Positions 8,139-32,076 of a stretch of DNA of 33,013 bases are shown piece after piece. The notes beneath the pieces were generated by a model. The model saw only the letters and a list, made by a program, of their open reading frames with translations. It was not told the origin of the DNA and did no database searches. The translations under genes and the position numbers were made by a program. Source of the DNA: a virus; the IMG/VR virus record IMGVR_UViG_3300031687_000061, positions 1-33,013 of that record. One strand, 5' to 3'. How positions within the stretch are numbered: position 1 is the first letter of the stretch; the number at the start of each line of letters is the position of its first letter.

Positions 8139-9290
8139 ATGGCGCAATCTGAAGTTGATATTGCCAACAGGGCATTAATACGTCTTGGTTTGCAAACTAT
8201 TACTGGCACAGCTACCAGCTTTAGCACTCTTATTTCAGCGGGTGATACAAAGCAAAGTCTTGCATTGCTAAATATACATTTTAAGGATTGGCAAAGAGAG
8301 TTATTGCGATCTCATCCTTGGAATTTTGCAGTTAAGAGAACGACTTTAATAAGACCAGTATCGTTAAGTCCTCAGAATATAACAATACGTAGATTTTACT
8401 CAGGAGACGCTTCTAATGGAACTGTTTACGATCAAGATCATTCTAATTCAAAATTAAATAATCCCGTTGTTCTCGACTTAAGAAGCAAGGAACACACAGA
8501 CGGACCGCAAGGCGTAGCGCCTTCGGCTTCTTCTATTGGATTTGATCACAATATTCAAGACAATGACGCAATTTATCTTAGCGGAACTCCTTATACTATT
8601 CTTAATGACAAATGGTATTACGTTAAACGAGGTTGGCATGATGGGAATAATGCAACTACCACACACCGAACTGGCGGCGCTTTAGCAAGTCCTGAACTTT
8701 ATATTTCTTTATACAATAAGTTAGGCGATCAAGGAGGGCTGGCTAACCAAACAGCAGGCTCTGTACCCGTTGACGCTTCAGGCGATCGGTATGGATTTTC
8801 CGTAAACGGAACATCTCTTTCTGGTTTTGGGAATACTGATTATTCAGTAGGAAGTATTAAATCAGAAAAAAAGTCTAGATGGCAATACGTATATAAATTA
8901 CCAGACGATGTTATTAGACTTTTAGATGTTGAAGACTTGAATGCTGGTGAAGAGTTTGTAGTAGAAAAGTCCAGCAACACTACAAGTGCAACTATTCCTC
9001 AAAGATCTTTGCTTTGTAATTCAGGAGAAAAAATACACATAAAATATATTGGAGATGTAGATTTTTCTACTTCTCAAAGCGGAGTAGATTCTTTGTTCTG
9101 CGAAGTTTTATCTTTAAAAATAGCCCTTAAGCTTTCCGAACTTTTAGTAAAGACTGCTTCCGTTACTGAGCTTATTGTTAAAGAATACACAATGGCTTTA
9201 TCTCAAGCTAAATCAATAGACGCTCAAGAAGGTTCTTCTGTAATGGATTACCATTCAACGTGGTCTGACGAAATGGGGCGAGTAGTTTGA
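8139..9290 (+). CDS. Tail tubular protein A (adaptor, T7 gp11-like), enlarged
   Basis: This 383-residue protein has the two ends of the gp11 family. The N terminus has DIANRALIRLGLQTITG and DWQRELLRSHPWNFAVKRT (about residues 50-68). The C-terminal half has WQYVYKLPDDVIRLLDVED (about 248-266) and CEVLSLKIALKLSELLVKTA (about 321-340). It forms the ring joining portal and tail nozzle. T7 gp11 is about 196 residues; the extra length is a ~165-residue Asn/Ser/Gly-rich insertion (about residues 80-245) between the two conserved parts. Its stop overlaps the TTG start of tail protein B. Confidence 0.88.
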   Translation: MAQSEVDIANRALIRLGLQTITGTATSFSTLISAGDTKQSLALLNIHFKDWQRELLRSHPWNFAVKRTTLIRPVSLSPQNITIRRFYSGDASNGTVYDQDHSNSKLNNPVVLDLRSKEHTDGPQGVAPSASSIGFDHNIQDNDAIYLSGTPYTILNDKWYYVKRGWHDGNNATTTHRTGGALASPELYISLYNKLGDQGGLANQTAGSVPVDASGDRYGFSVNGTSLSGFGNTDYSVGSIKSEKKSRWQYVYKLPDDVIRLLDVEDLNAGEEFVVEKSSNTTSATIPQRSLLCNSGEKIHIKYIGDVDFSTSQSGVDSLFCEVLSLKIALKLSELLVKTASVTELIVKEYTMALSQAKSIDAQEGSSVMDYHSTWSDEMGRVV

Positions 9291-12200
9291 CTCAAATAAA
9301 CATTGAGCAAAAAACGTTTTCTGGGGGAGAGATTAGTCCTGACCTAGAATCAAGGTCTGATTTAGATAAATACCAAACTTCTTTATCTGATAGTCAAAAT
9401 GTTCTTTGCACAAACAAGGGAGATTTAATTCCTAGACCCGGTACAGAATACGTTGACATGACTGCGGGAGTTAATTCCGTTGGTGCTCCTGAAAAAGCAA
9501 GGCTTATTCCGTTTAAGTTTTCAGAAGAAGAAAGTTACTTAATCGAATTTACTGAAAGGAAAATGAGAGTCTTCAGGCACGGCGAATCTGTTAAATACGA
9601 ATATACTGAATCTGGTCTTTCCGACACTGTTCATAAATCAATTAGTTCATCAATCTTTATTGATGAAACACAATACCCAGTTGCAAGTAATGACAATACA
9701 AGTAGCCCTACTAGAAGTTACGCATCTGCAAGCGGTGAATTTATTTTTCAAGGGAAGAATTCTTTTCCTTACGATGCTGGAGCTGGTCCCTTTACGATTT
9801 CAGGATTAGACGGCACAAGCGCCATTTCTAGCTTTACGATGTCTAAGCAGACAGGTACAGACGATATTGCTTACGCTGCGCCTGATGCAATTACTGCAAC
9901 TTCTGTTTTTTGGATTCACTCTGTAGATCGAGACATCTCAGCTTCTCCAACTATTAATAAAGACAGTGATGGTGCAAGTCTTAGCTTTTACAAGCCAGTA
10001 GATGTTGTTAGAATTACTTGGAACCCCAAGTTTTGCGTAGGGGGTTCCGGTTACGCTGCTGCTCCTAATAACTACTTTGTAGCAAAGGCGGCTACTGCCG
10101 ATCCTACCCGAGCTGCAACTTCTAGGCCAGCAAATAATACAGCAACTAAATGGAGTTTTTTCTCAGCAGGAACAACTGACACTACAGGGAGTGTTTTACA
10201 AGATCTTGTAAGTAGTCCAAAAACTATTTTTAGAACTGATTTTATTGGGCAAACAGATCCCTCTTCAAACGGTACTGCAACTTCGCCAATTCCTTATCTC
10301 GAATCAGAGTTAAACGATTTGCAGTACGCAATTGCAGGAGATTTTATTTTTATTACACACCCCAATTATCAACCTAGAAAAATTACAAGATTGGGATTGA
10401 ATAACTTTAAAATCTGTCGTCATTATACAAATTATGGTCCTTGGAGAAATGGACCTACTTACCCAGGCGTTGCTTGGGGAGGTGGTCACTACATGACTGG
10501 TACTGGTTCAAGCACTCCGTCAACTGGAGGGGTTGATGGAGATAATCTTGGGTATACAGGTAAATCAAATATTAAACTGTATAATTTATCTATTACTGGT
10601 ACAAATGGTTATCTTTGGAAAAGTTCAGGTTCTCCTGATATTGTTACTGCTGCAAGCGGAACTAACGCAGACCCTTCGATTATTGGTAGAAAATTACGAA
10701 TTGCTTGTCCTGTCGGAAAGCCGTTATTTTCCACTCAAGGGCAAGGAAGTGTTCGACATAATCCTTTTGATTCTACGGGGGATTTTCTAGATTACATTGA
10801 TGGAACAAAGCCCAGAAGTCAAAACACATCAACTTCAATATCTCCCAATGGTGATACTTCTAGCATTTCCGGCGTAAGCGTTAGTTCCTTGGCTGATTTT
10901 GAAAGCGTTAGTTCACCTGCTTTTTTCTTTCTAGAAGGAAGCGTTGAACCATACATAAAAACGTCTACGTCTACACCTCATTCAAATCCGTTAAGGGCTT
11001 ACAGGTACAGAATTACTAAGCCTTTAAATATGTATCGACACAGAGAATTTCCTTACTTTGTAGGATTAACTGGCACAACAAAGATTGGTCATTTATTTGA
11101 AGAAGCTCAACCTGACGGAACGGGTGGATGGCCTTCCTGTGTAGCTATTTTTGATAACAGACTTGTATATTCAACAAACGACGAATCACCAAATTCTATT
11201 GCCTTTTCCGTAAAGGGTGATTTTAATAACTTTGAACCAGATGATTGGGGAGCGAATGTTGCAAATACAATTAAAGGGGATAACTTAAGTAATTGGTCAG
11301 TTGCCTCCACTTATAATCCAGTTACATTTGATTATCACGGATTTGTTTACAGTATAGAAGAAGGTTTAGCAGACAAAATCCTTTGGTTAAAATCAACTAA
11401 TTATGGGTTAATAGCAGGCACGCCCAATGGAATTTACCTTTCTCAAAAGCTCCGTTCAGGCGGTGCAGTAACGCCATCGAATTTTTCAATGAGAATGATT
11501 TCAGAAGAAGGGTCTTCCAAAGTTCCAGCAGAATACATTGACGGAAAAATTTACTACATCAGCAAACTTGGAGACAAGTTGCTGAGTATGCAATACAGCC
11601 AAGACGCAGATGGATTCCGCCCGCAGGTGGAATCCATCTTTAGCGAACACTTGCTAAAAGATGGCGTAAAAGCAATGGCATATGCAAGAACGCCAATCTC
11701 AATACTTTGGCTTATTACAAACACTGGTAAACTTATTTCAGCAGTAAACTTAGACGTATCTAAAGAAAAGGCTTTATTTAAACACAAGTTAGGAAGTCCT
11801 GATTACAACAACAGAACAACTCCTTTAATTAATTCTGTTGCAGTTATTCCTTCAGATGAATTAGGTTTTGATCAGTTATACATGTCAGTTACAAGAAGCC
11901 CCAGTTTACCATTGATGGTAAACGATGCTATATCAGAAGGGCAATCTGCTTCTGTAAATCTCGCAGCTCTTACAAGTGACACTACAACAGGCTTTAATCC
12001 TGGGTACTCAACAAGCCATGCTGAAGCAGCGGGGATTGTCCAGTACCCTTGGTTTCTAAATGGCGATGGGAGCGGTGGGGATACTAGTGCTAACTCATCT
12101 AATACTATATGGGCAACTTTAACTAAAACTACAGAAGGAGTCAGGTTAGAAAGAACTGGAAATGTAGACTTTGCAGATGGTACAGATGATTCAGACACTA

Positions 12201-14158
12201 CATCAAACGGAGTTGGGTCATTGGCTACTCCCAACGATACGCCTGAACATTTATTTTATCACACAGTCGGGTTAGGTGGAGCCGCCAATTTCCAACCTCC
12301 AGATCCTTCAACTGGAGAAGACGATATTTGGCAAACTGCAGAAATTCCAGAGCAAGCAGCTTCCGTTTTCGCTCAATCAAAAACAGGAGTTTTTGACGAT
12401 CCGTCAAATGGATTTGCTAACGGTGATCTTTCTTTAAATCTTAGCGGAGGATCCCCTTTAGTAACTAGTAATAGATACATTACTCTTCTTTGTACAATTC
12501 ATTCTACTAAAGCAGATATGAGTGCTGCTGACATTCCAAATTATTTGAATATGTACTATTACGGACTTGGACCAAGCGGAGGTGTTCTTGCTGCTGGGTC
12601 AGGTACTAATTTTTTACCTTCACATATTAATGGTGTAGAAACGGGCACAGACAGAGATGTAAACTTTGATCAAATTTCAGTAGTTGCAAACAGGTCAGCC
12701 ACAAGTGGTTTATTCAATAGCGGCGCAGAAAACATGGCAAGTGAAAGAGATAAGCCAATCTATATCACTTGGGATATATATAATGATTACAGAATGTTTA
12801 ACGGATTAGGATCGACTTCTAATAATAATTTTCACCCTCTTGGATTTTACTTTGGCTTTAGCGATGCGCCTAGTATTAATAAAACTTCAGGCCAGATGAC
12901 GGGAACCGCTTTGAGCGGAAACCAGTATTCCGTTACTTTGCACGGAATGATATTAGGAAACATTGTTCCTAACATTGATAACAATACTGTTTCAACTCCA
13001 GCCTTAAGGGCTGCGGCATCAACACCTGTTTCACCTTCTCTTTTTGGCACATTTCAAACTCCTGCCCAATTGCTAGAAGGCGGAATGAATACAATTGAAA
13101 GGCTTACCAATTATTCTCCTTACCTAAAAAATACTCAACAATTCGTTGGTGCTGATTGTTCAATAAGCAATAAGACTATTTATGCTTCTGGAGAACCAAG
13201 CGAAAAAATTACAAACGTTCTTGTTGTTGATTATGACACGACTAATGATAAAACAAGAATATATGTAGATAATGAAAGCATGGTTATTGGGGACAAGTTT
13301 ATAATTGAATCTCTGGAAGGCGATCTTGAATATTTAAACTACGGAGATACTCACGTAGTTGACGGAGTGGATTCTACTAATAATTTCTATACGATTAACA
13401 CGCGAGCAAACCCCGCCAAGGGGATTGCCGCAGACTCAGACCATCTTGGATCCGCTACTTCACCTAGTTACTCAAAGGGCGGAATTATACTTAAATCAAG
13501 AAACTCGGTCAAATTGCCTGGGATAAGGCTTGCATACGACAGTGCTACTCAATCGTATGTAACTTTTAATCACGCATTTTCTTACTTTAGTGCTTGGAAT
13601 AATTTTGTTTATTTTAACAGAGGCTTAAAACACGGAGAAATTTTTTCGCTTGGTGAGTATTCTTTTCCCGAATCAGCCCAAGGCGATGTGCAAAATCTGA
13701 GCGGATCGGGCGGTAGATATCTCTATAAACCTTTTAATGGCTCCATTAGTATCTCTTCTATTATTGGTAACTCAATGTTTACATCCAGTCCAGATTTTTA
13801 CATTGGATATAAACCTGAAGTTTACTTTAGTACGTTGCCGCCTAGAATGAATACCCAGCTTGGAGCGATGGATACTAACGATTTGGTAATTACTTCTGTT
13901 GGTGTGAATCTTACAGATACACACCAAATAAAAGTAATGAGAAACAATCAAAGGGAATATAAAGAAAATTTGATTAATGATGAGTTTTCTTACGATTCTG
14001 CTTCGGTTGACGCAGTTAGAAGAAGTGGTATTTACGAATTAGGATTAATTCCTGAAGAAAAAGATAATTTTGGGAAAATACGTTTTGAGCCTGAAGTTGG
14101 TTATCCTTTTAGAATTAAATCAATTGCAATTCGCGGAGAAAGGCAAACTCGAAGATGA
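9287..14158 (+). CDS. Tail tubular protein B (nozzle, T7 gp12-like), giant form
   Basis: This 1623-residue protein starts at TTG inside the TTPA stop (TTGA), with GGGGCG six bases upstream. The start NIEQKTFSGGEISPDLESR and DLIPRPGTEYVD are hallmarks of the gp12 nozzle family. Others are AGDFIFITHPNYQPRKITR (about residue 350), FDNRLVYST (about 625) and GLIAGTPNGIYLSQKLRSGG (about 707-726). T7 gp12 is about 794 residues. The excess comes mainly from insertions at about 125-330 and 872-1265. The second splits LYMSVTRS from NTIERLTNYSPYL, which are near each other in ordinary family members. The nozzle forms the tail tube and contacts the cell surface. Confidence 0.9.
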   Translation: MTQINIEQKTFSGGEISPDLESRSDLDKYQTSLSDSQNVLCTNKGDLIPRPGTEYVDMTAGVNSVGAPEKARLIPFKFSEEESYLIEFTERKMRVFRHGESVKYEYTESGLSDTVHKSISSSIFIDETQYPVASNDNTSSPTRSYASASGEFIFQGKNSFPYDAGAGPFTISGLDGTSAISSFTMSKQTGTDDIAYAAPDAITATSVFWIHSVDRDISASPTINKDSDGASLSFYKPVDVVRITWNPKFCVGGSGYAAAPNNYFVAKAATADPTRAATSRPANNTATKWSFFSAGTTDTTGSVLQDLVSSPKTIFRTDFIGQTDPSSNGTATSPIPYLESELNDLQYAIAGDFIFITHPNYQPRKITRLGLNNFKICRHYTNYGPWRNGPTYPGVAWGGGHYMTGTGSSTPSTGGVDGDNLGYTGKSNIKLYNLSITGTNGYLWKSSGSPDIVTAASGTNADPSIIGRKLRIACPVGKPLFSTQGQGSVRHNPFDSTGDFLDYIDGTKPRSQNTSTSISPNGDTSSISGVSVSSLADFESVSSPAFFFLEGSVEPYIKTSTSTPHSNPLRAYRYRITKPLNMYRHREFPYFVGLTGTTKIGHLFEEAQPDGTGGWPSCVAIFDNRLVYSTNDESPNSIAFSVKGDFNNFEPDDWGANVANTIKGDNLSNWSVASTYNPVTFDYHGFVYSIEEGLADKILWLKSTNYGLIAGTPNGIYLSQKLRSGGAVTPSNFSMRMISEEGSSKVPAEYIDGKIYYISKLGDKLLSMQYSQDADGFRPQVESIFSEHLLKDGVKAMAYARTPISILWLITNTGKLISAVNLDVSKEKALFKHKLGSPDYNNRTTPLINSVAVIPSDELGFDQLYMSVTRSPSLPLMVNDAISEGQSASVNLAALTSDTTTGFNPGYSTSHAEAAGIVQYPWFLNGDGSGGDTSANSSNTIWATLTKTTEGVRLERTGNVDFADGTDDSDTTSNGVGSLATPNDTPEHLFYHTVGLGGAANFQPPDPSTGEDDIWQTAEIPEQAASVFAQSKTGVFDDPSNGFANGDLSLNLSGGSPLVTSNRYITLLCTIHSTKADMSAADIPNYLNMYYYGLGPSGGVLAAGSGTNFLPSHINGVETGTDRDVNFDQISVVANRSATSGLFNSGAENMASERDKPIYITWDIYNDYRMFNGLGSTSNNNFHPLGFYFGFSDAPSINKTSGQMTGTALSGNQYSVTLHGMILGNIVPNIDNNTVSTPALRAAASTPVSPSLFGTFQTPAQLLEGGMNTIERLTNYSPYLKNTQQFVGADCSISNKTIYASGEPSEKITNVLVVDYDTTNDKTRIYVDNESMVIGDKFIIESLEGDLEYLNYGDTHVVDGVDSTNNFYTINTRANPAKGIAADSDHLGSATSPSYSKGGIILKSRNSVKLPGIRLAYDSATQSYVTFNHAFSYFSAWNNFVYFNRGLKHGEIFSLGEYSFPESAQGDVQNLSGSGGRYLYKPFNGSISISSIIGNSMFTSSPDFYIGYKPEVYFSTLPPRMNTQLGAMDTNDLVITSVGVNLTDTHQIKVMRNNQREYKENLINDEFSYDSASVDAVRRSGIYELGLIPEEKDNFGKIRFEPEVGYPFRIKSIAIRGERQTRR

Positions 14159-14793
14159 GTAATTTTTTTAAGACAAACATTGACTTCACTGAAGGTTTGA
14201 TAAAAACTCGCGACCGAATAGATGGCGTTACTGAAAGCCCTTTAACTGAAGGTTTAATGGATAAAAACGCCACTACTGCAAGTCTTTTAGATGATGCTAG
14301 CGCTCCAAAAGCTCCAAAAGCTCCAGAAGCTCCAGCTGCTCCGCCTTCATCAAGTGCGGCTAATATTTCTAAAGGCGCAGGTGCCGTAACGAAAGTTGCG
14401 AGTGCTGCTGTAGGCGTTGTTGAGTCTTTTGATCAAGCTGAAATGAACAATGCAGCAATTAACAATATTGAAAAAGACTTAGAAGCAGGATTGATGCTTG
14501 GTTCTCGGTCTTCTGGAAAACAAAAAGCGTCAGCAGCAGTCACTGGTAACAGGGCAGCTCTTAGTGATATTACAAACACGCAAAGGCAAGCTGATGCTTC
14601 AGCAATGCGAGAAGCAGCAATGGCAGTCTCTCAATTAGAATCAGACACTACTAGCGGCTTTGTAAGCGCTGGTATAAACATGGTTGACTCTGTAGCTAAA
14701 GCTGGTGGAACGTTTGCTTCTATGGGTTCAGGCGCTGCCGCTGAAGGCACCAGCCTCGTCGAGCCGCGCATTTCGGCGAGGGGGATGGCTTAA
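14155..14793 (+). CDS. Internal virion protein, T7 gp14-like by position
   Basis: This 212-residue protein is Ala- and Ser-rich. It has an Ala/Pro/Lys repeat linker (APKAPKAPEAPAAPP, about residues 50-64) and then a long helical part with amphipathic stretches (AGAVTKVASAAVGVVESF). Its length and its place right after the nozzle gene match the gp14 type of ejection protein, which enters the cell envelope and helps form the DNA channel. It overlaps the upstream gene by ATGA and the downstream ATG by one base. Similarity to gp14 is by composition and position, not by clear motifs. Confidence 0.65.
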   Translation: MSNFFKTNIDFTEGLIKTRDRIDGVTESPLTEGLMDKNATTASLLDDASAPKAPKAPEAPAAPPSSSAANISKGAGAVTKVASAAVGVVESFDQAEMNNAAINNIEKDLEAGLMLGSRSSGKQKASAAVTGNRAALSDITNTQRQADASAMREAAMAVSQLESDTTSGFVSAGINMVDSVAKAGGTFASMGSGAAAEGTSLVEPRISARGMA

Positions 14794-17700
14794 TGGCAAA
14801 TAAAATTTCAAATTCTATTGCAGGATTAGCTAATACGTTTAATAAGATTGGAGACGATTTAGAAGCAAAGGAAAGAAGAGAGGAAGTAAAAAGAAAAGAA
14901 GATGATTTAATTGATCGTAGAAATAAAGACGCTGAAAACAGAATTCAGCTTGCTGACGCTTCTGCTGGCTTAACTGAAAAAATTGAAACAGGCTATACTC
15001 AATTTGATGCAAAACTTGAAGAGCAAAGATTTGAAGGTTTACTTGCTGGTGAGGAAGGGAAAAGCTCTTTTGATTCGATAGATTTTTTAAAAAATTATGA
15101 GTCTGATATTATGGATCCGTTTGAGTCTAATTTTGATATTGAACAAACTGACTATAATCAAGATCAAGTTGCTCAAGCAAGAGCAGCTTACACTAAAACT
15201 CGTCAAAACGTCAGAAGCCAATTAAGAGCAAAGTATGCTGAAAACCAAACTAAACATATTAATAAAAGGTTTACTGCAAGATCTGCTGTTTTACTTGATG
15301 TTTTAGATGGAAAAGTTGATAGCGGTGAAGATCCAGTAGCTGCTTACAATACGTATGTTGCAGGTATTACTGAACTTCAAAAAATAGTAGGTGAACCAAT
15401 TGTAATAGGTCAGTCTGCAGACGGAGAGCTAATCACTCATAGTCCTTTCTTGGGTGAAACTGCTATTCAAATGTCTCTTCGTTTTAATGGAGCAAGACAA
15501 ACTGTTTCCAGTTTGGTTTCTGCTGGCAAATTTGAACAATCTCAAGATTTTTACGAAGGCTTAACTACTGGTACAGAGGGCAGTAGCGTTAAAGATTTTA
15601 TTGAGAAACTAACAGGTTCTGAATCTGGAGGAAGATCAGATGCCTCTTATACTAATGAAGAAGGTGATTCATATGTAGGTTTAATTCAATTTGGTGAAGA
15701 TAGACTTACTGATTTTAGAAATGCAACTAATACGGAATTTACTCAAGAAGAATTTAGAAACGATGTAGATTTACAAGACGAAGCTGGCATTTGGCATATT
15801 AAAGATATTGATAAAAGAATTGCAAGTCAAAAAGCAAAAAATCCAGACCTTTTTAGAAGATACAATAATCTTGACGGTCTTCGTGCTGTTGCTCATCTTA
15901 GCGGGATGGGCAAAAACTTCGTTTCTTTTCTTAAAGGAAAAGGCAATGTTAAGGATGCACTTGGTACAAGCCAACAAGATTATTACAATCTGTATGCTAA
16001 TGGTGCTAAACAAGGCACTTCTAGTCTTCATGGAGTAAGCAAACAAGGCGTTTCTTACAGAAAACTTCTTAGAGATTCATTTGAAGAAGAAATGAAAGCA
16101 GAAATCAAGAATATTACTGAAGGAGTAGGAGCATCCGAAAGCCAAGTTCTTTTATTAACTGAAGAACACGACATTGATCCTACTAACGAAGAGAATTTTG
16201 CCAAACTCAGACAATATATAGAAAGTCGCAAAGCTGTAGTAGAACAAGCTTTAGAATTTGATTCAGACAACCCCCAAATGAATATATTAGATCCACAGCA
16301 AAAATTTGCTTTAGAGCGTCACGTATATGATTTAGTCACCGGCAAAGTCCAAGCTTCTACAAATCGCGTTTCTCCTGCAAGTGCTGCTGCGGTTATGGCT
16401 AAAACTCCAGTTGGAAGCAGAGCGCCGAAGCTTTCTCAGTTAATTGCTCAACAGGGTAGTGGAGAAATTCCTGAAGCAATTCTTACCCCAGTTATAGGAA
16501 TGCTTGAATCTCCACTTGTTTCTGATCCAAGAATAAAAGCAAAACAAATACAAGACAGAAGGAATATGGTTACCCTTTTAAACAAGCATGCTAAAGATGG
16601 CAGAATTCCTACATCATTGCAATTTTCTATAGGTACAAACTTTGCTCGGTTTTTAGCAAGAAACCCAAATATTTCTGATGACGATATTTTAAAATTTGCT
16701 TCATCAACTATTGACGACAAAATTAAATATGAACAACCGTTTGTAGATGAAGACGGTGTTGTCGAAAGAACTAGCATTGACATTGGGGCACTTGCAAATG
16801 TAATTCAAGGTGGCGGCATTTTTAATAAATTAGAGGAAGGATTCATAGAACCAGGTACTACGTCTGAGCAAATAAATTTAACTACCGCAATACGTGTTAA
16901 ACAAGATTCAGGCAGGAATATGAGTGACTCTATTGCAGATGTTAATGCAAGTGTTCAAATTCAAAGAAATGCAAACGTGCCGGTTAGACCTAATTTTGTT
17001 AGAGCTAAGACAGAAGACGAAGCAAGGCTTTATGAAGTTGGGTTAGTAAATTTAGTAGCTAACGCAGCAGGCAAGACTTTTAATACCCAAAAAGAATTTA
17101 TTGAGTTTGCACAAAGTTTTGTTGCAATTCCACGAGATCCTTATGATCCCAATGATAATGAGTATAGAATTGTTACTAGAGGAACCAATCGACCTATGCT
17201 GGATAATCAATACATTGATGTAAGCGAAGTATATGCGCTCAGAAATAAAGGAATTGCAAGTATTGATCAATTAATGGATAGCAAAATTCAAGTAATGGAT
17301 GATGTTTCAGAAGAAATTGGAATTAGAGATGTTGCAAGCAGATGGGACGGGGGAAAAGATACAGAATGGTTTTATCGTACATTTTCAGATGCTTTTGACT
17401 TTGAAAACGTAGATCAACTTGGCGCGCTAGGAGCATTTGATAGCAATGGTGATCGTTTTTCAGAAGCAAATCTTTACAACCAAACTAATATTAACGCTTC
17501 TGGAAATCCAAACCAAACTATTTTAAACGTATTAACTAACAGCGAAAACGTTCTTGAAGCTATGAAAAAAAGTGATCCTGCAACTTATAAAGATATAGTT
17601 AGATTAAGAGAAAACCTTAAAAGATTTGGCAGTCTTTCTCATATTCAGATTTTCCCAGATTACATGGAAGAGATTTCAGCAGCAATGCTTACAAGACTTT

Positions 17701-19400
17701 ACATAAGGGCTTCGTTAGTTGACGACAATAAAGTTGGTAAATTAGAACTCACCCCAAGAGATATTCAAAGTATTGATCTTGTAGATTCCCTTCCTTCTGG
17801 AGAAAGGGAAAGACTTGAAGCTCAAGGCAGAAAAAATGGTTTAGCAGTTGCTTTTTCTAAGCTTTACCCTGAAGCAGCGGCAGCAGATAAAGCAGTTCCA
17901 GGAACTGCTTTTGTTAAATCAATGATGGAAATGGCAAATTCAGGTGCTTCACTGTTTGCTGGTTTGTCTAGGTACAATACAACGGCTGTAAACGCAATTG
18001 CTTTAGGTCAACCAATGCCAGATCTTAAAAACAATAGACAAAAAACTCTTGATAGTTCTTATGACAAACCTATTGCTATGGGTAGTGCAAGACTTAATTC
18101 TAAAAGGTTTTTATCTATTAGAGAGTCAACTGTTGACGGATTTATTGAAGCAGCGGTTAAAAACAGTAGTGAAAACGAACCTCTAATCATTTCAAGTGAA
18201 AATGTAAGTCCCAACGATTCAACTAACGCAGCAGGAGATCTTGCTAATAATTTAATTGGTAGAGCTGTGAATGGTAATCTACAGGGTGGAACAAGTTTCC
18301 AAATACTTGATAACGCTGGAGCTTCATTAAGTATTGAATCTAGAGTAGTTGATGGTGATACTGTTTCAATAACTTCATCGAATGGAGAGCAAGTAATTAT
18401 TCACAACCACATGCCTGAAGACACTCTTTCCTTAAACGAATTAACACCTATTACTTTAAAGTTGCCCGAAGAAACTGCCGTAAGGGTGGTAGGACAAAAC
18501 GCACCAGAAGTTAAAAAAGCTTGGAGAGGAGAACCTGGAGAAGAAGGAGGTAATGAAAGTTACGTCTTTATGGTTGAGTCTACTAAGGGTAAACAAGTGT
18601 ACGTTCAAGTTTTTCCGACTGTCGATGGAAGAGACTTGATGAAAGACAACTACAACAGAGTTCTTGGAGGATTGTCAGTTGATGGGGAAGATTTAACTGC
18701 ATCATCTCTTAAAGCTGGTTTAACTAAAACTTTATTTATGAGTGGGTTTGGCATTGAATTTGGTGTTGAACAAGCAGAAGAATACGCTTTAGCTGCACAA
18801 CAAGGTAACGATTTTGCTTTAGGATTGTATTCAGAAAAATCTCCTACTGTAGAACGAAAAGCATATTCACACTTAGAGCAACAAGCTTTAGAGAACAAGA
18901 AAGGGAAAAACTCGCCTCCCTTCCAGCCTCTCTTTCTTTCTGTTCCAGACGGCAATGGCGCTGGTTTTCTTATTGGAAACAGTTATCCAGATTTAGGTAT
19001 TCCCGAAGTTGATTTAAACAACGCTAAACACACTGAGACTTTGATTCAGCATTTTAGAAAATTAAGCAAGAAAAGGGAATTTCTTCCTTTTTCTGATGAA
19101 GCATCTGCTAACTCATTTATTGCTGAAAGCGCAAAATACATTTTTGACTCAAACGTATCACCTGTTTACAAATCAGTAAGAGCAGGAATGAGGGAGCATA
19201 CAAATAGAGTTTACGTACAAAATGAAACAGACATGCTTATAGAAGAATTTCCAAATTATACGGGTATTCAAATTGCACAAGCAGTTCGTAAATCATCATA
19301 CGGAAGATCAAGAAATTATTTTCATGTCGATGATCTTAGAAGAATTTTAGAATCAGAATCTTTGGGCTACATCCCCATGTTTACCAACGGAGAAAATTGA
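14793..19400 (+). CDS. Internal virion protein with transglycosylase and SNase-like nuclease domains
   Basis: This is a 1535-residue ejection protein. Residues 1-120 are a charged, coiled-coil-like region. Residues ~265-420 form a lysozyme/transglycosylase-like domain: GSESGG with likely catalytic E277, GLIQFGEDRL (296-305) and DGLRAVAHLSGMGK. It would open peptidoglycan during ejection. Residues ~1180-1310 resemble a staphylococcal-nuclease (TNase) fold: VVDGDTV (1185-1191), VRVVGQNAPE with R1231 and E1239, then DNYNRVLGGLSVDG with R1289. These match SNase D21, R35, E43 and R87, while the D40 position is Asn. A ~30-residue loop separates the first two motifs. It sits between the gp14-like and gp16-like genes. 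Enzyme activity is inferred. Confidence 0.8.
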   Translation: MANKISNSIAGLANTFNKIGDDLEAKERREEVKRKEDDLIDRRNKDAENRIQLADASAGLTEKIETGYTQFDAKLEEQRFEGLLAGEEGKSSFDSIDFLKNYESDIMDPFESNFDIEQTDYNQDQVAQARAAYTKTRQNVRSQLRAKYAENQTKHINKRFTARSAVLLDVLDGKVDSGEDPVAAYNTYVAGITELQKIVGEPIVIGQSADGELITHSPFLGETAIQMSLRFNGARQTVSSLVSAGKFEQSQDFYEGLTTGTEGSSVKDFIEKLTGSESGGRSDASYTNEEGDSYVGLIQFGEDRLTDFRNATNTEFTQEEFRNDVDLQDEAGIWHIKDIDKRIASQKAKNPDLFRRYNNLDGLRAVAHLSGMGKNFVSFLKGKGNVKDALGTSQQDYYNLYANGAKQGTSSLHGVSKQGVSYRKLLRDSFEEEMKAEIKNITEGVGASESQVLLLTEEHDIDPTNEENFAKLRQYIESRKAVVEQALEFDSDNPQMNILDPQQKFALERHVYDLVTGKVQASTNRVSPASAAAVMAKTPVGSRAPKLSQLIAQQGSGEIPEAILTPVIGMLESPLVSDPRIKAKQIQDRRNMVTLLNKHAKDGRIPTSLQFSIGTNFARFLARNPNISDDDILKFASSTIDDKIKYEQPFVDEDGVVERTSIDIGALANVIQGGGIFNKLEEGFIEPGTTSEQINLTTAIRVKQDSGRNMSDSIADVNASVQIQRNANVPVRPNFVRAKTEDEARLYEVGLVNLVANAAGKTFNTQKEFIEFAQSFVAIPRDPYDPNDNEYRIVTRGTNRPMLDNQYIDVSEVYALRNKGIASIDQLMDSKIQVMDDVSEEIGIRDVASRWDGGKDTEWFYRTFSDAFDFENVDQLGALGAFDSNGDRFSEANLYNQTNINASGNPNQTILNVLTNSENVLEAMKKSDPATYKDIVRLRENLKRFGSLSHIQIFPDYMEEISAAMLTRLYIRASLVDDNKVGKLELTPRDIQSIDLVDSLPSGERERLEAQGRKNGLAVAFSKLYPEAAAADKAVPGTAFVKSMMEMANSGASLFAGLSRYNTTAVNAIALGQPMPDLKNNRQKTLDSSYDKPIAMGSARLNSKRFLSIRESTVDGFIEAAVKNSSENEPLIISSENVSPNDSTNAAGDLANNLIGRAVNGNLQGGTSFQILDNAGASLSIESRVVDGDTVSITSSNGEQVIIHNHMPEDTLSLNELTPITLKLPEETAVRVVGQNAPEVKKAWRGEPGEEGGNESYVFMVESTKGKQVYVQVFPTVDGRDLMKDNYNRVLGGLSVDGEDLTASSLKAGLTKTLFMSGFGIEFGVEQAEEYALAAQQGNDFALGLYSEKSPTVERKAYSHLEQQALENKKGKNSPPFQPLFLSVPDGNGAGFLIGNSYPDLGIPEVDLNNAKHTETLIQHFRKLSKKREFLPFSDEASANSFIAESAKYIFDSNVSPVYKSVRAGMREHTNRVYVQNETDMLIEEFPNYTGIQIAQAVRKSSYGRSRNYFHVDDLRRILESESLGYIPMFTNGEN

Positions 19401-22400
19401 TGCCAGTTGTAGACATTTTTGGCAATCGAGTTACTGGTCAAGGTCTTGCGACAGAGCCTACCTATAACTTTGCTGAAAAAATGAGCGCAGCATCAAACAT
19501 GACTGTTCTTGGTTCTATGTTTAAAGGCTTAAAGGTTACGCCAGAAGACGAAAGAGCTGCTCGTCATTTTTCTGGATACGGAACGTCTCCAGAAATTGAC
19601 GGAGATGTTAGAGACTACAGATGGATGCAGGAAAAAAGACAGATTATATCTGACTTTATTCCCGTTATGCAGGAAGAACGAAAAGAGCTTCGACAACAAC
19701 CAATTACAAATGAGTCTATTGCTTACTTAATGGAAGCAGACACTTATCAACAGTTTTTAAATAGACGAGGCGTTATCAACGCAAACGCTAAAGCAAACGC
19801 TGTTTTTCAAGAACACCCAGCGGCTGTTTTTAGCAGCAGCATTGCAATGTCTTTAATTGAGCCTTGGAATCTTGCGGGTTTACCTTTGGCTTTGGTCAAG
19901 ACTGGTTCTAAGGTTGCCAGCGCTGCTCGCATGGGTGCCTTTGGGGCAGCCCAGGCGAGCGTTGAAGAAGGTGTTCTTCACTACAACGATCCAAACAGGA
20001 CCGTTGGTCAATCGCTTATTAGCGTTGGCGCAGCAGGTACGATTACTGGTTTATTTGGAGCTTACTTAGGTAAAACCAAAGGAAGTCAAACCGAAGCATT
20101 AGAAGAAGTTACTAGACGAATTAAAAGTATTGATGACGAAGGTCGTGTTGTTATTGATTTAGAGAATGATTTAATTGATCCTTCTTTGACAACTATCAAT
20201 TTAAACTTAGCAACTGAAGAAGAGATATTAAAATCTTTTAGTAACTTACCCGGTGTAGGCAGAGCTGTTGCTAAGAAGATCATTCAATTAAGAAATGAAA
20301 GAGTAAGCGAAAGCTTTGAGTCTTTAGATGATCTGCTTGACGGAAGCCTTGACGCAAACACACTTGCTAAAATAAATAAAATTATTGATAGCGGTAATTA
20401 CCACGCTAACGGAGTGGCCCTTAGTGAGTCGGGTAAGATCGTAGGGAGTTACGGTGTAGAGAAAATTGCAGCGTTAAGTTCTCCGCTTATGAAACTTACT
20501 CAAAGTCCTTTTCCTGAAGTCAGAAGAGCAGCTCAAGAGTTAATGCAAACTAACTTTAGAACAACTGACAATCTAAAAGGCGGAGTAAACAAGATAAGTC
20601 TTGAAGAAATAATGGATCAGAATCAACAACTTGGAAACAAGTTGATTGATGACATAGAGTTTTCTTATTACTCGTACATGAACCCTGGTAAAGAAGCAAC
20701 TGACTTTGTAAGAGGAAGAGGCGGCAGGCTTTTCCGGCAAGCCGGACAGCTTGCTCAAAACTTAAGGCAAGCCAACGTAGATCAACTTTCATCTAGGCCA
20801 TTCCAAAGACCCGGCAAGTTGAGTTTTGATGAATACAAAGTTGCTGTTTTTGAACACAGAACAGGATCTAAGGTAAGCACTGATCCGAACATTATTAATG
20901 CTTCAAAGCATTACGATGAGTTTTTTGACTCAAGGGCTTCAGAGTTTAAAGAGTTATTAAAAAAACTTTATAACGGAGAAGAAAACCACTGGATAAACAC
21001 AGTTAAATATACTCACAGGATATACAACAAGGGTCAGATCGCAGAAAGCCCTGAAGCTTTTAGGGACTTTTTAATTGACCAAGCTTTAAAAAAGTACGGG
21101 GGAAGGGAAGGTGCGGAAGCCGCGCTTGGCGTTCCTCTTCCAGAAATGAAAAGAATATTTGAAAGTTCAATTAGAAAACTAATTGCTTCTCCAGAAGATA
21201 GACTTATTTTAGAAGAGGTTTTTGAACCCGCTAAAAGAGGCGCTTCTAAAGACAGGCTTTGGACTTTTATAGATGACGCTGACTTATATAGAACTAACTT
21301 TGCAGTTAAGGATATTGAAGCAATTGCTAATTCCTACATATCAGGCCCACTTGCTGACATAGATTTCTTTAGAAAGTATGGGACTTTTGATGTAGATGAA
21401 ATTGCTAATAAACTAAGAACTGCAATTGATTCTCGTATATTAAAGAGTGGTGTAGATATAGACGATCTTACTTCTGAAGCTTTACGTAAGACAGATAAGG
21501 ATCTTGAGCTTTTTAAAAACATGCTAAGAAGAGTAAGAGGGACTTACATGGACCCGAACTCTCCGCTGCCTGGAAGTACGCAAAGAGTTTTAATGGACAA
21601 CATTAAAAAGTTTAACAATCTAAGGATAGGTGGAGGCTTTGCGATTAAGTCTTTGCCTGACATTGGACGATCTGTAATGTTCTTAGGATTAAAAAGAGCA
21701 TACGGTCCAACAATACAAGGATACGTTGGAAGAAACGCCCAACTACTAGAGCAGTTGAAAGCTTCCCAAAGGGAGCTTTCAACTATTGGAGTAGGGAACG
21801 AGATTAATTCTTCTCAAATAATTTCACAGTATACGAATACCAGCATGACTAATATTACAGGCAATGCTTTTACTGATCTTTTAGGCAAAGCAAATAACTC
21901 AATGTTTATTTTGAACGGTCTAAGCGTATGGAATCAACACATGAAGCGCGTAGCTGGTGTAGGCGTTGTTGATAAGATTATTCACTCTGGCGCTATGAGG
22001 AAAGCAGGCAAGCTTTCTGAAAAAGAAATGGCAAACATTAGAAGATTAGGAATATCTGATAGAGATCTTGACGACATTTATTCTGAGTATTTAAAACATG
22101 GTCAATCTTACAAGGGTGTTCACCTTCTTAATTTTCAAAACTGGAGTAAGAAGGCAAGGTCTTCAATGGATTCTTCTGGTCTTACATTAGACAGAAAAAT
22201 GCAACTTGCTGTAAAAAGAGAAGTAGACACAATCATTGTGACCCCAGGCAAAGGCGACATTCCTTTGATTATGGAAAACTCTTACGTCAGTATGATTGGT
22301 CAATATAGAACCTTCCCAATTGCAGCAATGATGAGGCAGACCGTTCCATTAGCTCAAAACATGAACAAGAACGCTATGGCTGGACTATTCATATCAATGG

Positions 22401-22756
22401 GTGCTGGAATTATTGCATCTCAGTATTCTTCTTTTGCAAGAGGAACACAGCATGATGATGATTCTTGGGAAGATTACCTTTGGGAGTCTCTTGAAGATAC
22501 TGGCAATCTTTCTACAATAGGTGAATTCGGAAACTTTGCACAAATGATTCAAAAGGGAAATCCGGCTCTTGGTGGTCCTACTCTGACGGGTGCAATTGAT
22601 GTTGGTAAAACAATTGCAGGAATGTCTAACCCCGAGGGGATGAATGAATTTGAAATAAGAGCAGCTCAAAGGCTTGTGCCTATGTTTGGTCTTTATCAGA
22701 TGGTAAAGGCTTTGCCCGTTGGTGTGGCAACTGGAATTGAAAGTTTAATAGATTAA
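19400..22756 (+). CDS. Large internal virion protein with ComEA-like helix-hairpin-helix module
   Basis: This 1118-residue protein is last in the ejection-protein trio, the position of T7 gp16. ATG 19400 is preferred over the adjoining TTG because GGAG lies seven bases upstream. Residues ~263-330 form a helix-hairpin-helix module of the ComEA type: INLNLATEEEILKSF, LPGVGRAVAKKIIQLR (G285, G287) and FESLDDLLDG. This is a sequence-nonspecific DNA-binding fold. Hydrophobic Ala/Gly-rich segments (about 140-240) and one near the C terminus (AGLFISMGAGIIASQ) could insert into the membrane. It probably helps form the trans-envelope DNA channel; the HhH would contact the passing DNA. Confidence 0.8.
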   Translation: MPVVDIFGNRVTGQGLATEPTYNFAEKMSAASNMTVLGSMFKGLKVTPEDERAARHFSGYGTSPEIDGDVRDYRWMQEKRQIISDFIPVMQEERKELRQQPITNESIAYLMEADTYQQFLNRRGVINANAKANAVFQEHPAAVFSSSIAMSLIEPWNLAGLPLALVKTGSKVASAARMGAFGAAQASVEEGVLHYNDPNRTVGQSLISVGAAGTITGLFGAYLGKTKGSQTEALEEVTRRIKSIDDEGRVVIDLENDLIDPSLTTINLNLATEEEILKSFSNLPGVGRAVAKKIIQLRNERVSESFESLDDLLDGSLDANTLAKINKIIDSGNYHANGVALSESGKIVGSYGVEKIAALSSPLMKLTQSPFPEVRRAAQELMQTNFRTTDNLKGGVNKISLEEIMDQNQQLGNKLIDDIEFSYYSYMNPGKEATDFVRGRGGRLFRQAGQLAQNLRQANVDQLSSRPFQRPGKLSFDEYKVAVFEHRTGSKVSTDPNIINASKHYDEFFDSRASEFKELLKKLYNGEENHWINTVKYTHRIYNKGQIAESPEAFRDFLIDQALKKYGGREGAEAALGVPLPEMKRIFESSIRKLIASPEDRLILEEVFEPAKRGASKDRLWTFIDDADLYRTNFAVKDIEAIANSYISGPLADIDFFRKYGTFDVDEIANKLRTAIDSRILKSGVDIDDLTSEALRKTDKDLELFKNMLRRVRGTYMDPNSPLPGSTQRVLMDNIKKFNNLRIGGGFAIKSLPDIGRSVMFLGLKRAYGPTIQGYVGRNAQLLEQLKASQRELSTIGVGNEINSSQIISQYTNTSMTNITGNAFTDLLGKANNSMFILNGLSVWNQHMKRVAGVGVVDKIIHSGAMRKAGKLSEKEMANIRRLGISDRDLDDIYSEYLKHGQSYKGVHLLNFQNWSKKARSSMDSSGLTLDRKMQLAVKREVDTIIVTPGKGDIPLIMENSYVSMIGQYRTFPIAAMMRQTVPLAQNMNKNAMAGLFISMGAGIIASQYSSFARGTQHDDDSWEDYLWESLEDTGNLSTIGEFGNFAQMIQKGNPALGGPTLTGAIDVGKTIAGMSNPEGMNEFEIRAAQRLVPMFGLYQMVKALPVGVATGIESLID

Positions 22757-23963: not shown

Positions 23964-24215
23964 ATGGAAGGTAACGGTCATCAAAGAGAACTTGGTCAAT
24001 TCTTTCAAGAGGTTAAAGAATTGAGACATGATTACCAGAATCTCAAAACAGTAATTAACATGCTCGACGAGAATCAAAGAAACTTAGAAAGAGAATTGAT
24101 GAATCTTAGAGGTGAGTTAAAAACTTTCCAAGCTAAGTTAATGACAATGGGATCTGTGTCAATTGCTGTTATAACAGCAGGGGCATGGGTTATACAGATA
24201 TTCTTTATTCCATGA
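23964..24215 (+). CDS. XhlA-like coiled-coil membrane protein (lysis accessory or holin)
   Basis: This 83-residue protein has an N-terminal coiled coil (about residues 8-56, ELRHDYQNLKTVINML then NQRNLERELMNLRGEL) and one C-terminal transmembrane helix (SVSIAVITAGAWVIQIFFIP, about 64-83). This is the layout of XhlA/hemolysin-type proteins, which assist holins or endolysins. Its stop overlaps the next ATG (ATGA), placing it first in the lysis region. XhlA-like identity is by architecture; other small coiled-coil membrane proteins look alike. Confidence 0.65.
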   Translation: MEGNGHQRELGQFFQEVKELRHDYQNLKTVINMLDENQRNLERELMNLRGELKTFQAKLMTMGSVSIAVITAGAWVIQIFFIP

Positions 24216-24577
24216 AAATTAATAATCGCTTTGAAAGAGCCACCCAAGTAGTGAGATGGCTAAAGACAGAATTTAAAATGGAATCTTTAAAGAAATTACT
24301 TTGGGTAGATATACTTTTAGATGAAGATGGTAAGTCTCAACTATGTGGTTGTGTGGAAGAGGAAAGCAATGGAGATCTTACCATTACGCTTTCAAAAAGA
24401 GCTTGCTCAACATTCCAACTGACTATCGACACAGTGATCCATGAAGCCGCTCATGCGGCTTTATGGAACACTGGCTTAGGTATGTTGCACGGAGATAAAT
24501 TTTGGAAACGTTATGGAAGAATGATGGACGCTTACGAACATCACGGCCACATGGATTCAAAAGCTTTTGATGTCTAA
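24212..24577 (+). CDS. SprT-like zinc metalloprotease
   Basis: This 121-residue protein has the zinc motif HEAAH (H77, E78, H81) and a downstream H93 in LHGDKFWKRYGR, as in SprT/Wss1-type metallopeptidases. The start at 24212 gives an ATGA overlap with the XhlA-like gene; an in-frame ATG at 24185 would extend the N terminus by nine residues. Two cysteines (CGC, 45-47) lie before the motif; the C-terminal zinc ribbon of full-length SprT is absent. Cellular relatives act on DNA-protein crosslinks; its place inside the lysis region is unusual. Substrate unknown. Confidence 0.8.
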   Translation: MKINNRFERATQVVRWLKTEFKMESLKKLLWVDILLDEDGKSQLCGCVEEESNGDLTITLSKRACSTFQLTIDTVIHEAAHAALWNTGLGMLHGDKFWKRYGRMMDAYEHHGHMDSKAFDV

Positions 24578-25376: not shown

Positions 25377-25473
25377 TGCACTTGAAGAAATGGCAAACAA
25401 ATCTCTTGTAACTACCAATCCCGGAACGGAATTGTGGGTCAGAGAGATATTTAGGGTTTGCCAATGGCAGTAG
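25273..25473 (+). CDS. Rz1-like outer-membrane lipoprotein spanin
   Basis: This is a 66-residue lipoprotein read in the frame shifted from the Rz-like gene. Its signal peptide has a hydrophobic core and lipobox LLSC with the lipidated cysteine at residue 20, followed by VNAPKNCGIPHPPSD. The start is TTG at 25273, with AAAAGG about nine bases upstream. It runs 97 bases past the Rz stop, so the pair is overlapping rather than fully embedded, and its end overlaps the next gene by 10 bases. It implies an outer membrane in the host. Confidence 0.75.
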   Translation: MIHLCLQASFLLLLISLLSCVNAPKNCGIPHPPSDALEEMANKSLVTTNPGTELWVREIFRVCQWQ

Positions 25474-26495
25474 AAGACACAGAGCTTTTAGCACTCAGGT
25501 ATTTGCAAAAGCAAAAGAATAATTTGAATACAGTCAAGCTGGCATTGTCTTCTTCTGAAAAAGAAAACGAGCAGTTAAGAAGCGATTTAGAGCGTTTAAA
25601 GAAAACCCCCCGGAAAAAGCTTCGCCCCAAAAAGCTTCCTTTCCCTAAAGGCAAAAGAGCTTTCATACTAGGATTGACGGATAATCACTACACGCAGCAG
25701 GTAGACCCGACGCTTAGCGGAGGGGTGAACCTGCACGACGAGAAAATAGCTTTCAATAGAGTCTCAAGTGTAATTTCTCAGGCAAATGAGATCATAGAGG
25801 ATAGAAGATCTAAATACGGGGTGTCAGAGGCCCTCATTTGGCTTGGAGGAGACTCTATGGTGAATGCTGACTTACACCCCCACTTCCAGAGGTTGACCCC
25901 TTACGAGCCGCTGGAAGAGCTTGAAGTAGTATATAATATAAAGATGGCTCTATTCGATCAGATTAAAGAGGGTCCGCTACGCCGTGTCCCCTTGAGGGTC
26001 CACGGTTCGCTTTCTAATCATGGGAGAGATGGGAAAAAAGAAGAAGTTTCTGCCGAGATGGCTTTTAGGAGAAGCTACGACGTATCTCTTTACCATCAGT
26101 TAAATAGAGGCTTGGATTTACCTTTTCGCATTGAAGATACTTATTGGGGAATTGAAACAGTTGGCGGTGTAAAATGCTTACTGCATCACGGTCATATGAT
26201 TCATATGAAAGTAATGCCTCATACTAATTTTTACCAACCTAATTGGAGCATGTTGGGACGTAGGCTTGTACACCCAAAGCACAAAGGAGTTAGATTAGCA
26301 ATGATCGGCCATTGGCATACTGCTGCTGAGTACCAAAGCAACGAGTTTGCTTTTGTAAGCGCAGGCTGCACTGTCGGACAAGATGGTTACGCTTATGGTC
26401 ATGGCTTTTTGCCAGAAAGACCATCTCAGCCTTTAATTGAAATTAACTCTGAAACTAAACAAGTTATTTCAGTTCACAGAATTTATACAAGTTAA
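25464..26495 (+). CDS. Calcineurin-like metallophosphoesterase with N-terminal coiled coil
   Basis: This 343-residue protein begins at ATG 25464, with AGGG seven bases upstream. Residues 1-50 are a probable coiled coil and 50-64 a very basic linker. The two-metal phosphoesterase motifs follow in order: DNH (D73, H75), GGD (D130), SNHGRDG (N185, H186), HHGH (H241-H244) and GHWH (H283, H285). All ligand positions are present, so a phosphodiesterase or nuclease of the Mre11/SbcD or related type is likely, but the substrate cannot be told. It overlaps the Rz1 end and is the last gene of the rightward block. Confidence 0.88.
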   Translation: MAVEDTELLALRYLQKQKNNLNTVKLALSSSEKENEQLRSDLERLKKTPRKKLRPKKLPFPKGKRAFILGLTDNHYTQQVDPTLSGGVNLHDEKIAFNRVSSVISQANEIIEDRRSKYGVSEALIWLGGDSMVNADLHPHFQRLTPYEPLEELEVVYNIKMALFDQIKEGPLRRVPLRVHGSLSNHGRDGKKEEVSAEMAFRRSYDVSLYHQLNRGLDLPFRIEDTYWGIETVGGVKCLLHHGHMIHMKVMPHTNFYQPNWSMLGRRLVHPKHKGVRLAMIGHWHTAAEYQSNEFAFVSAGCTVGQDGYAYGHGFLPERPSQPLIEINSETKQVISVHRIYTS

Positions 26496-28159: not shown

Positions 28160-29251
28160 TCAGCCCCAAATGATTTTATTTTTTCTTCCTGACCTTATTT
28201 TACTAACTAAATTTTCTTGATGCCATTTCTGCATTAGAAATGCAGAAGCCACACGAGATCTTTCTAGGTTTGGAAGTTTATTATTATTTACCAATAGACT
28301 TGCAACGTCGTCTTTGTCGTACTCAACATTTTCTTTTAGTAAATCTGACGGTTTTAAGTTTTGCACTGTTTCGATGTCTGATACATCAGGGTCTGTGACC
28401 GGCCTGAAATAAAGTATTTCGTCTGCACCATAATGCTCTGGTCTTATTTCAAAGAACGTAGTAGGCATAGTGCTTGATACATTTGAAACAGTTCTCATTC
28501 GCCTAATGTGCTTTTTGTCTTCTCCTTCCATTTGCTCTAACAAAACGTTGCTTGATGCACTTCCAGAGATTGCGCCAGCACCTCGGACGCTGCTCCATAC
28601 TTCAACTTCAGACTTGCCTTGAGTTGGTTTTGCTGTGTGATGAATTAATAGTACGGCAACATTGCATTTAGAAGCAATTTTTTGAATGTTATTCATAACT
28701 TTTGACATACCTGCGTTATCGTTTTCTGTTGTATTGTCTGGTAGGGATGCTGACAGAGTGTCTATGATGAGAAGGCTTGCGCCTTCTGGCATGGCTTCTT
28801 CGATGAGCCTATGTGATCCTTCTGAGTCCATTGAGTAAATACCGCGAGGTAGCAAAACTCCTGGTGCGTCACCAATTAAATAAATGTTATCCCAATAGGA
28901 ATCTTTTCTAACAAGATCTGAACGCATTTGATCTAGCTTTTTAAGTCGCCTAGCAAGCTCGGAGGCTGGGAAATCAGGTGACAGGTAGACCACCTTGGTA
29001 CCCGGACATTCAAGCACTGCACCCGGCCACGGAGCAGGCACTCTGGCTTCGTCTACCGACGCAACAGCGCTTGCAATGTTAAGTGCAAACCAGCTCTTAC
29101 CGGAATAGGGAGGAGCGCTAAGCACTGTTACATGGCCTCTGTGGAGCAATCCTGCTACTACCGCAACGGGTGGTGGACTTGATGCTAATTCCATAGCCCT
29201 TTCGCCATTATAAATATATGGTTTCATCTTGATGGATATAATTTCTGACAT
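28160..29251 (-). CDS. RepA/KaiC-like AAA ATPase, probable replicative helicase
   Basis: This 363-residue protein starts at ATG 29251, with AAAAGG six bases upstream; a longer GTG-started frame exists but lacks that site. It has Walker A SAPPYSGKSW (K52), Walker B LLIIDTL (160-166) and the sensor-like LLIHHTAKPTQGK (201-213), followed by a Gly/Ala/Ser-rich segment. These are typical of RSF1010 RepA-type hexameric helicases (AAA_25). The C terminus (about 315-363) looks like a winged helix. It is transcribed divergently from ssb, which fits a replication module. Confidence 0.87.
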   Translation of the reverse strand: MSEIISIKMKPYIYNGERAMELASSPPPVAVVAGLLHRGHVTVLSAPPYSGKSWFALNIASAVASVDEARVPAPWPGAVLECPGTKVVYLSPDFPASELARRLKKLDQMRSDLVRKDSYWDNIYLIGDAPGVLLPRGIYSMDSEGSHRLIEEAMPEGASLLIIDTLSASLPDNTTENDNAGMSKVMNNIQKIASKCNVAVLLIHHTAKPTQGKSEVEVWSSVRGAGAISGSASSNVLLEQMEGEDKKHIRRMRTVSNVSSTMPTTFFEIRPEHYGADEILYFRPVTDPDVSDIETVQNLKPSDLLKENVEYDKDDVASLLVNNNKLPNLERSRVASAFLMQKWHQENLVSKIRSGRKNKIIWG

Positions 29252-29266
29252 TGAAAACCTTTTCAG

Positions 29267-29294
29267 TTGATACTGTGAGTCGGACAGGTACAAT
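29267..29294 (+). promoter_or_regulatory. Sigma70-like promoter for ssb and erf
   Basis: TTGATA (29267-29272) and TACAAT (29289-29294) each match five of six consensus bases, with a 16-base spacer. They lie in the divergent gap between the helicase and ssb genes, about 50 bases before the ssb start. The location is what would be expected for early expression of the recombination genes. Confidence 0.6.
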
Positions 29295-29343: not shown

Positions 29344-29736
29344 TTGCTAAATGTTAATCGTGTAACTCTCCTTGGTAATGTAATTGAGGATCCTACTGTT
29401 CGTAACACTAAAAGTGGTACAAAGGTTGCAAACTTCCGAATCGCTACTTCTAAGAAGTGGAAGAATAAGGAAGGTGAAGCGCAGTCGAGTCGTCAGTTTC
29501 ACCGTTGTACAGTGTTTGGCGGCGTTGCCGACTTTGTCGGCACACTCGCCAAAGGTGATGCAGTTTACGTAGAAGGTGAGTTGACATACGGCTCATACGA
29601 AAAAGAAGGACAGAAGGTCTATACAACCGATATTAATATTGGTTTTGATGGAAAGGTAATTGCACTTGACTATGGAGATGAAGATGGAAACGAAAATGGA
29701 AGCGGAAACAATAACAATGAAGAAGCCCCTTTCTGA
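29344..29736 (+). CDS. ssb: Single-stranded DNA-binding protein
   Basis: This 130-residue OB-fold protein has the SSB N terminus VNRVTLLGNVIEDPTVR and later FRIATSKKWKN and VYVEGELTYGSYE. An Asn/Gly/Glu-rich linker leads to an acidic tip ending EEAPF, which resembles the conserved DDDIPF-type tail that recruits partner proteins. The start is TTG at 29344, with AGGTGA six bases upstream; no ATG in this frame fits. It overlaps the erf gene by 20 bases, pairing SSB with a strand-annealing recombinase. Confidence 0.93.
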   Translation: MLNVNRVTLLGNVIEDPTVRNTKSGTKVANFRIATSKKWKNKEGEAQSSRQFHRCTVFGGVADFVGTLAKGDAVYVEGELTYGSYEKEGQKVYTTDINIGFDGKVIALDYGDEDGNENGSGNNNNEEAPF

Positions 29737-31898: not shown

Positions 31899-31975
31899 TG
31901 GTCGGCCCACCGGGACTTGAACCCGGAACCGCACGCTTATAAGACGTGTGCTCTAACCAGTTGAGCTATGGGCCA
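31899..31975 (-). tRNA. tRNA-Ile (anticodon UAU)
   Basis: A full cloverleaf is visible. The acceptor TGGCCCA pairs with TGGGCCG (U-G at the tip). The D stem is GCTC/GAGC and the anticodon stem CACGT/GCGTG with loop CTTATAA. The T arm is CCGGG-TTCAAGT-CCCGG, and CCA is encoded. Anticodon UAU reads AUA, a codon that most bacteria read with a lysidine-modified CAU tRNA. Length is 77 bases including CCA. Confidence 0.93.
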
Positions 31976-31993
31976 TTTATCACTTGGCTTATG

Positions 31994-32070: not shown

Positions 32071-32076
32071 ATTATT

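Follow-up and report, generated by a model that had tools for sequence, protein, structure and literature searches.

The stretch of DNA analysed here (the window) is a 33,013-base virus record of an uncultured marine short-tailed phage with a GC content of 40%, in which a terminase, a head-tail connector, a major capsid protein and tail genes are accompanied by two large genes for internal proteins, ORF15 and ORF16 (Table 1). The order of tail tube gene, small gene, ORF15 and gp16-type ORF16 is as in T7-type ejection modules, with a tail gene of phrog_376 upstream of ORF15 and a gene of phrog_342, annotated 'internal virion protein with endolysin domain', downstream. Among the other genes, a tail tubular B-like protein of 1623 residues (window 9287-14158) carries about 390 extra residues (roughly 871-1265) that are absent from three relatives. 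Replication and recombination genes encode an exonuclease (phrog_284; 25458-26495), a DnaB/AAA_25-type ATPase (28160-29293) and an ERF recombinase (29660-30355), and a SprT-like metallopeptidase just above its Pfam cut-off lies at 24185-24577, an SprT-like protease being annotated also in the pelagiphage Greip. Three tRNA genes, Ile-tat, Arg-tct and Leu-taa, occupy the minus strand at 31899-32529; the Ile anticodon tat is of the kind that usually decodes ATA.

Table 1. Position and basis of the features of ORF15 and ORF16 (window coordinates; residues are those of the respective protein unless stated otherwise)
Feature	Positions	Strand	Basis
ORF15, 1535-residue probable gp15-position ejection (internal virion) protein	14793..19400	+	ORF call and translation; between phrog_376 tail-protein gene and phrog_342 gene
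Probable muramidase/SLT-like segment of ORF15, residues 255-404, candidate catalytic Glu277 in ESGG	15555..16004	+	tblastn to annotated peptidoglycan hydrolase; motif alignment
SNase domain of ORF15 as modelled, residues 1168-1362	18294..18878	+	PF00565 above cut-off; AlphaFold model; structural match to staphylococcal nuclease
VVDGDTV, residues 1185-1191 (D19=D1187, D21=D1189, plus T22)	18345..18365	+	motif in frame; alignment
Insertion of ~30 residues relative to SNases, before the R35 strand, residues ~1200-1228	18390..18476	+	alignment; low pLDDT at model residues 44-50
AVRVVGQNAPE, residues 1229-1239 (R35=R1231, position 40=N1236, position 41=A1237, E43=E1239)	18477..18509	+	alignment
DNYNRVLGG, residues 1285-1293 (R87=R1289)	18645..18671	+	alignment
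Last helix of the SNase fold, model residues 161-173	18774..18812	+	AlphaFold model
ORF16, gp16-type ejection protein, partner of ORF15	19397..22756	+	phrog_342, E=3e-51 over residues 681-1106
Helix-hairpin-helix (DNA-binding type) in ORF16, residues 266-315	20192..20341	+	PF12836, E=7e-5, just under curated cut-off

The full-length ORF15 protein matches no PHROG or Pfam family, including any known gp15 family, and is for that reason called here the gp15-position protein rather than gp15. We infer that it is an ejection protein from the gene order and from the match of the next gene to T7 gp16-type internal virion proteins, in line with the preliminary description, which had taken the 1535-residue product for an internal virion protein. 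The helix-hairpin-helix of ORF16 recurs in the related phage L009 and is alignable in all four relatives; together with the gene order and the gp16-type neighbour, it fits a DNA-handling ejection complex. Since ORF15 by itself matches no known ejection protein family and its ejection is read from gene context rather than from proteomics, the protein might instead never be delivered into the host and be a tail or scaffold component, with its staphylococcal nuclease-like (SNase) domain, described below, acting in assembly or lysis. The T7-type gene order and the phrog_342 match of ORF16 make this scarcely credible.

In ORF15, residues 255-404 are probably a muramidase or transglycosylase. A tblastn search aligns residues 252-405 with a protein of a Sulfitobacter phage that is annotated 'peptidoglycan hydrolase', and an ESGG...QFG motif is common to both. 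The transglycosylase of the preliminary description is thus backed by a resemblance to annotated peptidoglycan hydrolases and by the ESGG motif, but not by Pfam, where no lysozyme or SLT model passes its cut-off (PF18013, E 0.085). The module is like that of T7 in its gene order, in the gp16-type phrog_342 assignment of the next gene and in that one of its two large proteins possibly includes a muramidase segment; it is unlike T7 in that this segment is found in the gp15-position protein and not in gp16, that an SNase domain is added, and that ORF15 falls into no known gp15 family. The gp16-type muramidase of T7 seems to have its place in ORF15 in this phage, as if moved from one protein to the other.

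Near its C-terminus, ORF15 contains a genuine SNase-family domain (residues 1168-1362). In isolation, this domain matches the Pfam SNase family PF00565 with 24.1 bits (E=5e-5), or with 24.8 bits (E=3e-5) when other boundaries are chosen, the gathering cut-off being 21 bits; a Pfam scan of full-length ORF15 misses it. NCBIfam nuclease models (E=0.001-0.002) and PHROG nuclease families match the isolated domain weakly, and a phmmer search of the PDB with the domain returned no significant match. A profile built from 40 other SNases (37 bacterial or archaeal and three from phages) was run against every ORF of the window, of its kin and of six related phages; it finds the domain with 33.5 bits (E=4e-9), and hhalign aligns the two with P=1.2e-9 and 36% identity over 95 columns. 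A chance match of motifs was rejected, as none of 7,832 decoys made by reversal or shuffling scored above 9.9 bits (E=0.33), compared with the 33.5 bits of the domain. The SNase-like domain that the preliminary description had placed in the C-terminal segment is therefore real, and the motifs it had quoted, VVDGDTV and VRVVGQNAPE, are present in frame; the span it had given, 18345-18720, does lie within the domain but is too short, the match of the structural model extending over about nucleotides 18297-18833.

An AlphaFold model of residues 1168-1362, computed from a 36-sequence alignment, has a pLDDT of 75.8, with values of 84-93 for the blocks around the catalytic positions. Residues 2-180 of the model match residues 10-141 of staphylococcal nuclease (Z 16.1, 2.2 Å over 131 residues), and Foldseek likewise assigns the model to the SNase OB-barrel fold (E 3.9e-9). 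SNases were among the sequences from which the model was computed, so that it serves as confirmation and its fold still depends on the sequence match; from the single sequence, AlphaFold gives the segment a pLDDT of 34. A fold other than that of SNases, or catalytic residues that do not line up, had been named beforehand as outcomes that would speak against the domain; what the model predicts is the SNase fold, with the residues aligned across the 36 sequences.

The columns of D19, D21, T22, R35, E43 and R87 (staphylococcal nuclease numbering) are invariant throughout this alignment, which includes the window and two of its diverged kin. The published mechanism of SNases assigns the Ca2+-bound phosphate to R35 and R87 and the attacking water to E43 (PMC8436206), and the equivalents of all three are kept in the window as R1231, E1239 and R1289. 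With respect to the Ca2+ ligands, Asp21 is kept as D1189, whereas the strict Asp40 is not, position 40 being occupied by N1236. This is the pattern that the preliminary description had read from the motifs, namely D21, R35, E43 and R87 retained and Asn in place of D40. Asn at position 40 occurs in 5 of the 37 natural SNases with a readable motif and Ala at position 41 in 7 of them, so that neither substitution by itself marks a dead enzyme. The window domain thus shares the OB-barrel fold and the D19, D21, T22, R35, E43 and R87 equivalents with the SNase family (PF00565, for example 1SNC), but differs from staphylococcal nuclease in being embedded near the C-terminus of a 1535-residue phage protein, in its Asn40 and in the insertion of ~30 residues that separates the D21 strand from the R35 strand and is modelled with low confidence.

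Relatives of the window were sought among viral contigs with ORF15, ORF16, the portal and capsid proteins, the L010 domain and L010/L011 alignments, and only three informative ones were obtained; genome contigs scanned with ORF15 contained none. The portal search found seven contigs, six of them at 70-100% identity, of which two are identical or nearly so over the available part. The three longer contigs, L009, L010 and L011, likewise from uncultured phages, have the same gene order, with a protein of 1379-1595 residues in place of ORF15 and an evident homologue of ORF16. While the portal and capsid proteins are 70-87% identical among the window and these three, the ORF15 proteins are almost beyond pairwise recognition, which indicates that the ejection protein evolves very fast.

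In L010 and L011, the corresponding gene has a divergent SNase copy in the corresponding position, with the same invariant residues (VVKDADT ... GRLKGLKAAE / GRIKNLDAAE ... GTFGRE / GTFGRD), position 40 being Lys in L010 and Asp in L011. When hhalign was slid along the L010/L011 pair against the SNase profile, the peak fell exactly at the expected stretch (P=1.6e-4), with 0.03 or weaker elsewhere. Between these two proteins the SNase region is the most conserved part, at 57-63 identities per 100 columns compared with 34% overall. The domains of the window and its kin share only about 20% identity; the four kin domains on their own are misaligned by MAFFT, and bacterial SNases were added to the alignment. 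L009, whose ORF16 is closest to that of the window (43%), is not supported as an SNase (hhalign P=0.3): its region retains 30% identity over 82 residues and the motifs are lost. Judged from these comparisons, the domain is old in this phage group, kept in three of the four members and lost or erased in L009. Its loss from the member that is closest by partner protein suggests that not every member of the group depends on the activity.

These comparisons bear on whether the domain still cuts. A retired SNase, in which the OB-fold serves as a nucleic-acid-binding or structural module of the ejection channel that grips or guides DNA, would account for Asn at position 40 in the window and Lys in L010, as well as for the weak similarity without motifs in L009. 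Moreover, a virion protein that meets the DNA of its own phage has good reason not to cut, and gp15 and gp16 of T7 bind DNA (PMC8954989). Binding, however, does not need R35, E43 and R87 jointly, and all three are kept in the window, L010 and L011 at about 20% identity, an invariance that points to selection on catalysis and leads us to consider a purely binding or structural role rather unlikely. The Ca2+ site itself may be weakened, given Asn40 in the window and Lys40 in L010.

We suggest, with moderate confidence and on the strength of sequence and predicted structure, that the domain is a catalytically competent, Ca2+-dependent and sequence-nonspecific nuclease that is delivered by the ejection apparatus and acts at the cell envelope. 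We infer virion presence, ejection, Ca2+ gating and nuclease activity alike: the domain would be silent in the virion beside the packaged DNA, with the dependence on Ca2+ as the switch that keeps it so; ORF15 would be ejected along with the other internal proteins, as are gp15 and gp16 of T7; and the nuclease would work at the envelope during or after passage of the phage DNA. Cytoplasmic Ca2+ is far below the level that SNases need, and the periplasm of a marine host should share the Ca2+ of seawater. Because of this low cytoplasmic level, and because the ejection channel would shield the incoming phage genome, the substrate that we prefer, as the least certain part of the proposal, would be nucleic acid of the periplasm or its immediate surroundings, for example the DNA of competing phages. 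An engineered precedent for safe carriage is provided by staphylococcal nuclease placed in the T4 head, where the virus was active and the packaged DNA was digested only upon addition of calcium (PMC3012670).

Alternatively, the nuclease could enter the cytoplasm with the genome and degrade host DNA or RNA early, shutting down the host and feeding phage synthesis. Breakdown of nucleic acid near ejection genes does appear to be a theme, since HTVC010P-type phages, distant relatives of the window, are reported to encode a putative ribonuclease next to an internal virion protein, within a genomic island (PMC6487183), which may by analogy be a parallel to the SNase of the window, and predicted nucleases have been described in multi-domain proteins that are injected (PMC5512222). 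Nevertheless, the DNA of the phage itself would be exposed in the cytoplasm, the Ca2+ requirement of SNases is well above the cytoplasmic level, and ORF15 would by analogy behave like gp15 of T7, which remains in the periplasmic tunnel (PMC8954989); we therefore regard a cytoplasmic role as highly unlikely. A further extension of the envelope-acting nuclease, namely that the Ca2+-gated nuclease of the ejection channel remains in the envelope once entry is over and destroys the periplasmic DNA of later-arriving phages while the phage's own genome is shielded within the channel, would amount to superinfection exclusion by the injection machine and is doubtful. If a nuclease is indeed built into the ejection machine, the channel that delivers the genome could also destroy nucleic acid at the site of entry. 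How a virion can house a nuclease next to the genome it packages then becomes a testable question, to which Ca2+ gating would be a simple and checkable answer.

In 50,697 phage records, tblastn with ORF15 and with its domain matched the muramidase-like segment only and never the SNase domain; queries with the L010 domain or with the complete L010 and L009 proteins had the same outcome. Generic SNase matches occur in 35 of the 50,697 records, and the annotated ones that were opened are separate nuclease genes (YokF of SPbeta and others), of the same domain family as that of the window but standing alone. Scanning of viral contigs with an SNase-type alignment likewise gave standalone SNases only, the three nearest to the window domain being ORFs of 135-154 residues. 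A six-frame search of four phage records with PF00565 had no match, not even in the window itself, and is too insensitive to show absence. The best viral fold match (E 8e-8), BFVD entry A0A6J5NQ80, is a protein of 1342 residues from an uncultured Caudovirales phage that is named 'Staphylococcal nuclease (SNase-like), OB-fold', has 16% identity to the window domain in the aligned part and is known here by name and fold match alone; automatic annotation has thus already recorded this domain in a large phage protein.

The open-access full texts contained no paper on an SNase in ejection or virion proteins (subscription journals were outside the scope), and a review that assigns transglycosylase and DNA-binding functions to the ejection proteins of short-tailed phages has no word starting with 'nuclease' in its full text (PMC8954989). 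In the loci of six cultured or assembled relatives (HTVC010P, Baldr, HTVC035P, Skadi-4, Greip and MW202510), nothing matched the SNase profile. The remark in the preliminary description that no standard T7-type ejection protein is known to have this domain therefore holds for the six relatives and the open-access texts covered. By capsid protein (about 44%), HTVC010P-type pelagiphages are the nearest cultured phages and have a similar gene order; their ejection slot, however, holds other proteins, with a Phage_lysozyme domain in that of Skadi-4, and their GC content is 31-32% in the three measured as compared with 40% in the window.

Polyvalent proteins, the injected multi-domain proteins of phages and conjugative elements, have predicted nucleases of other folds, and neither 'SNase' nor 'staphylococcal' occurs in the main text of the survey that describes them (PMC5512222). 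ORF15, which is encoded among virion genes, may resemble them in being multi-domain and in combining peptidoglycan-attacking with nucleic-acid-targeting domains, of which the SNase is certain and the muramidase only probable; no metallopeptidase or other domain shared with polyvalent proteins was found in ORF15. Separately, we note that gp20 of HTVC010P (14832-16343), which lies in the ejection region and is annotated as hypothetical, matches the large polyvalent protein associated domain 38 (LPD38) with E=9e-49.
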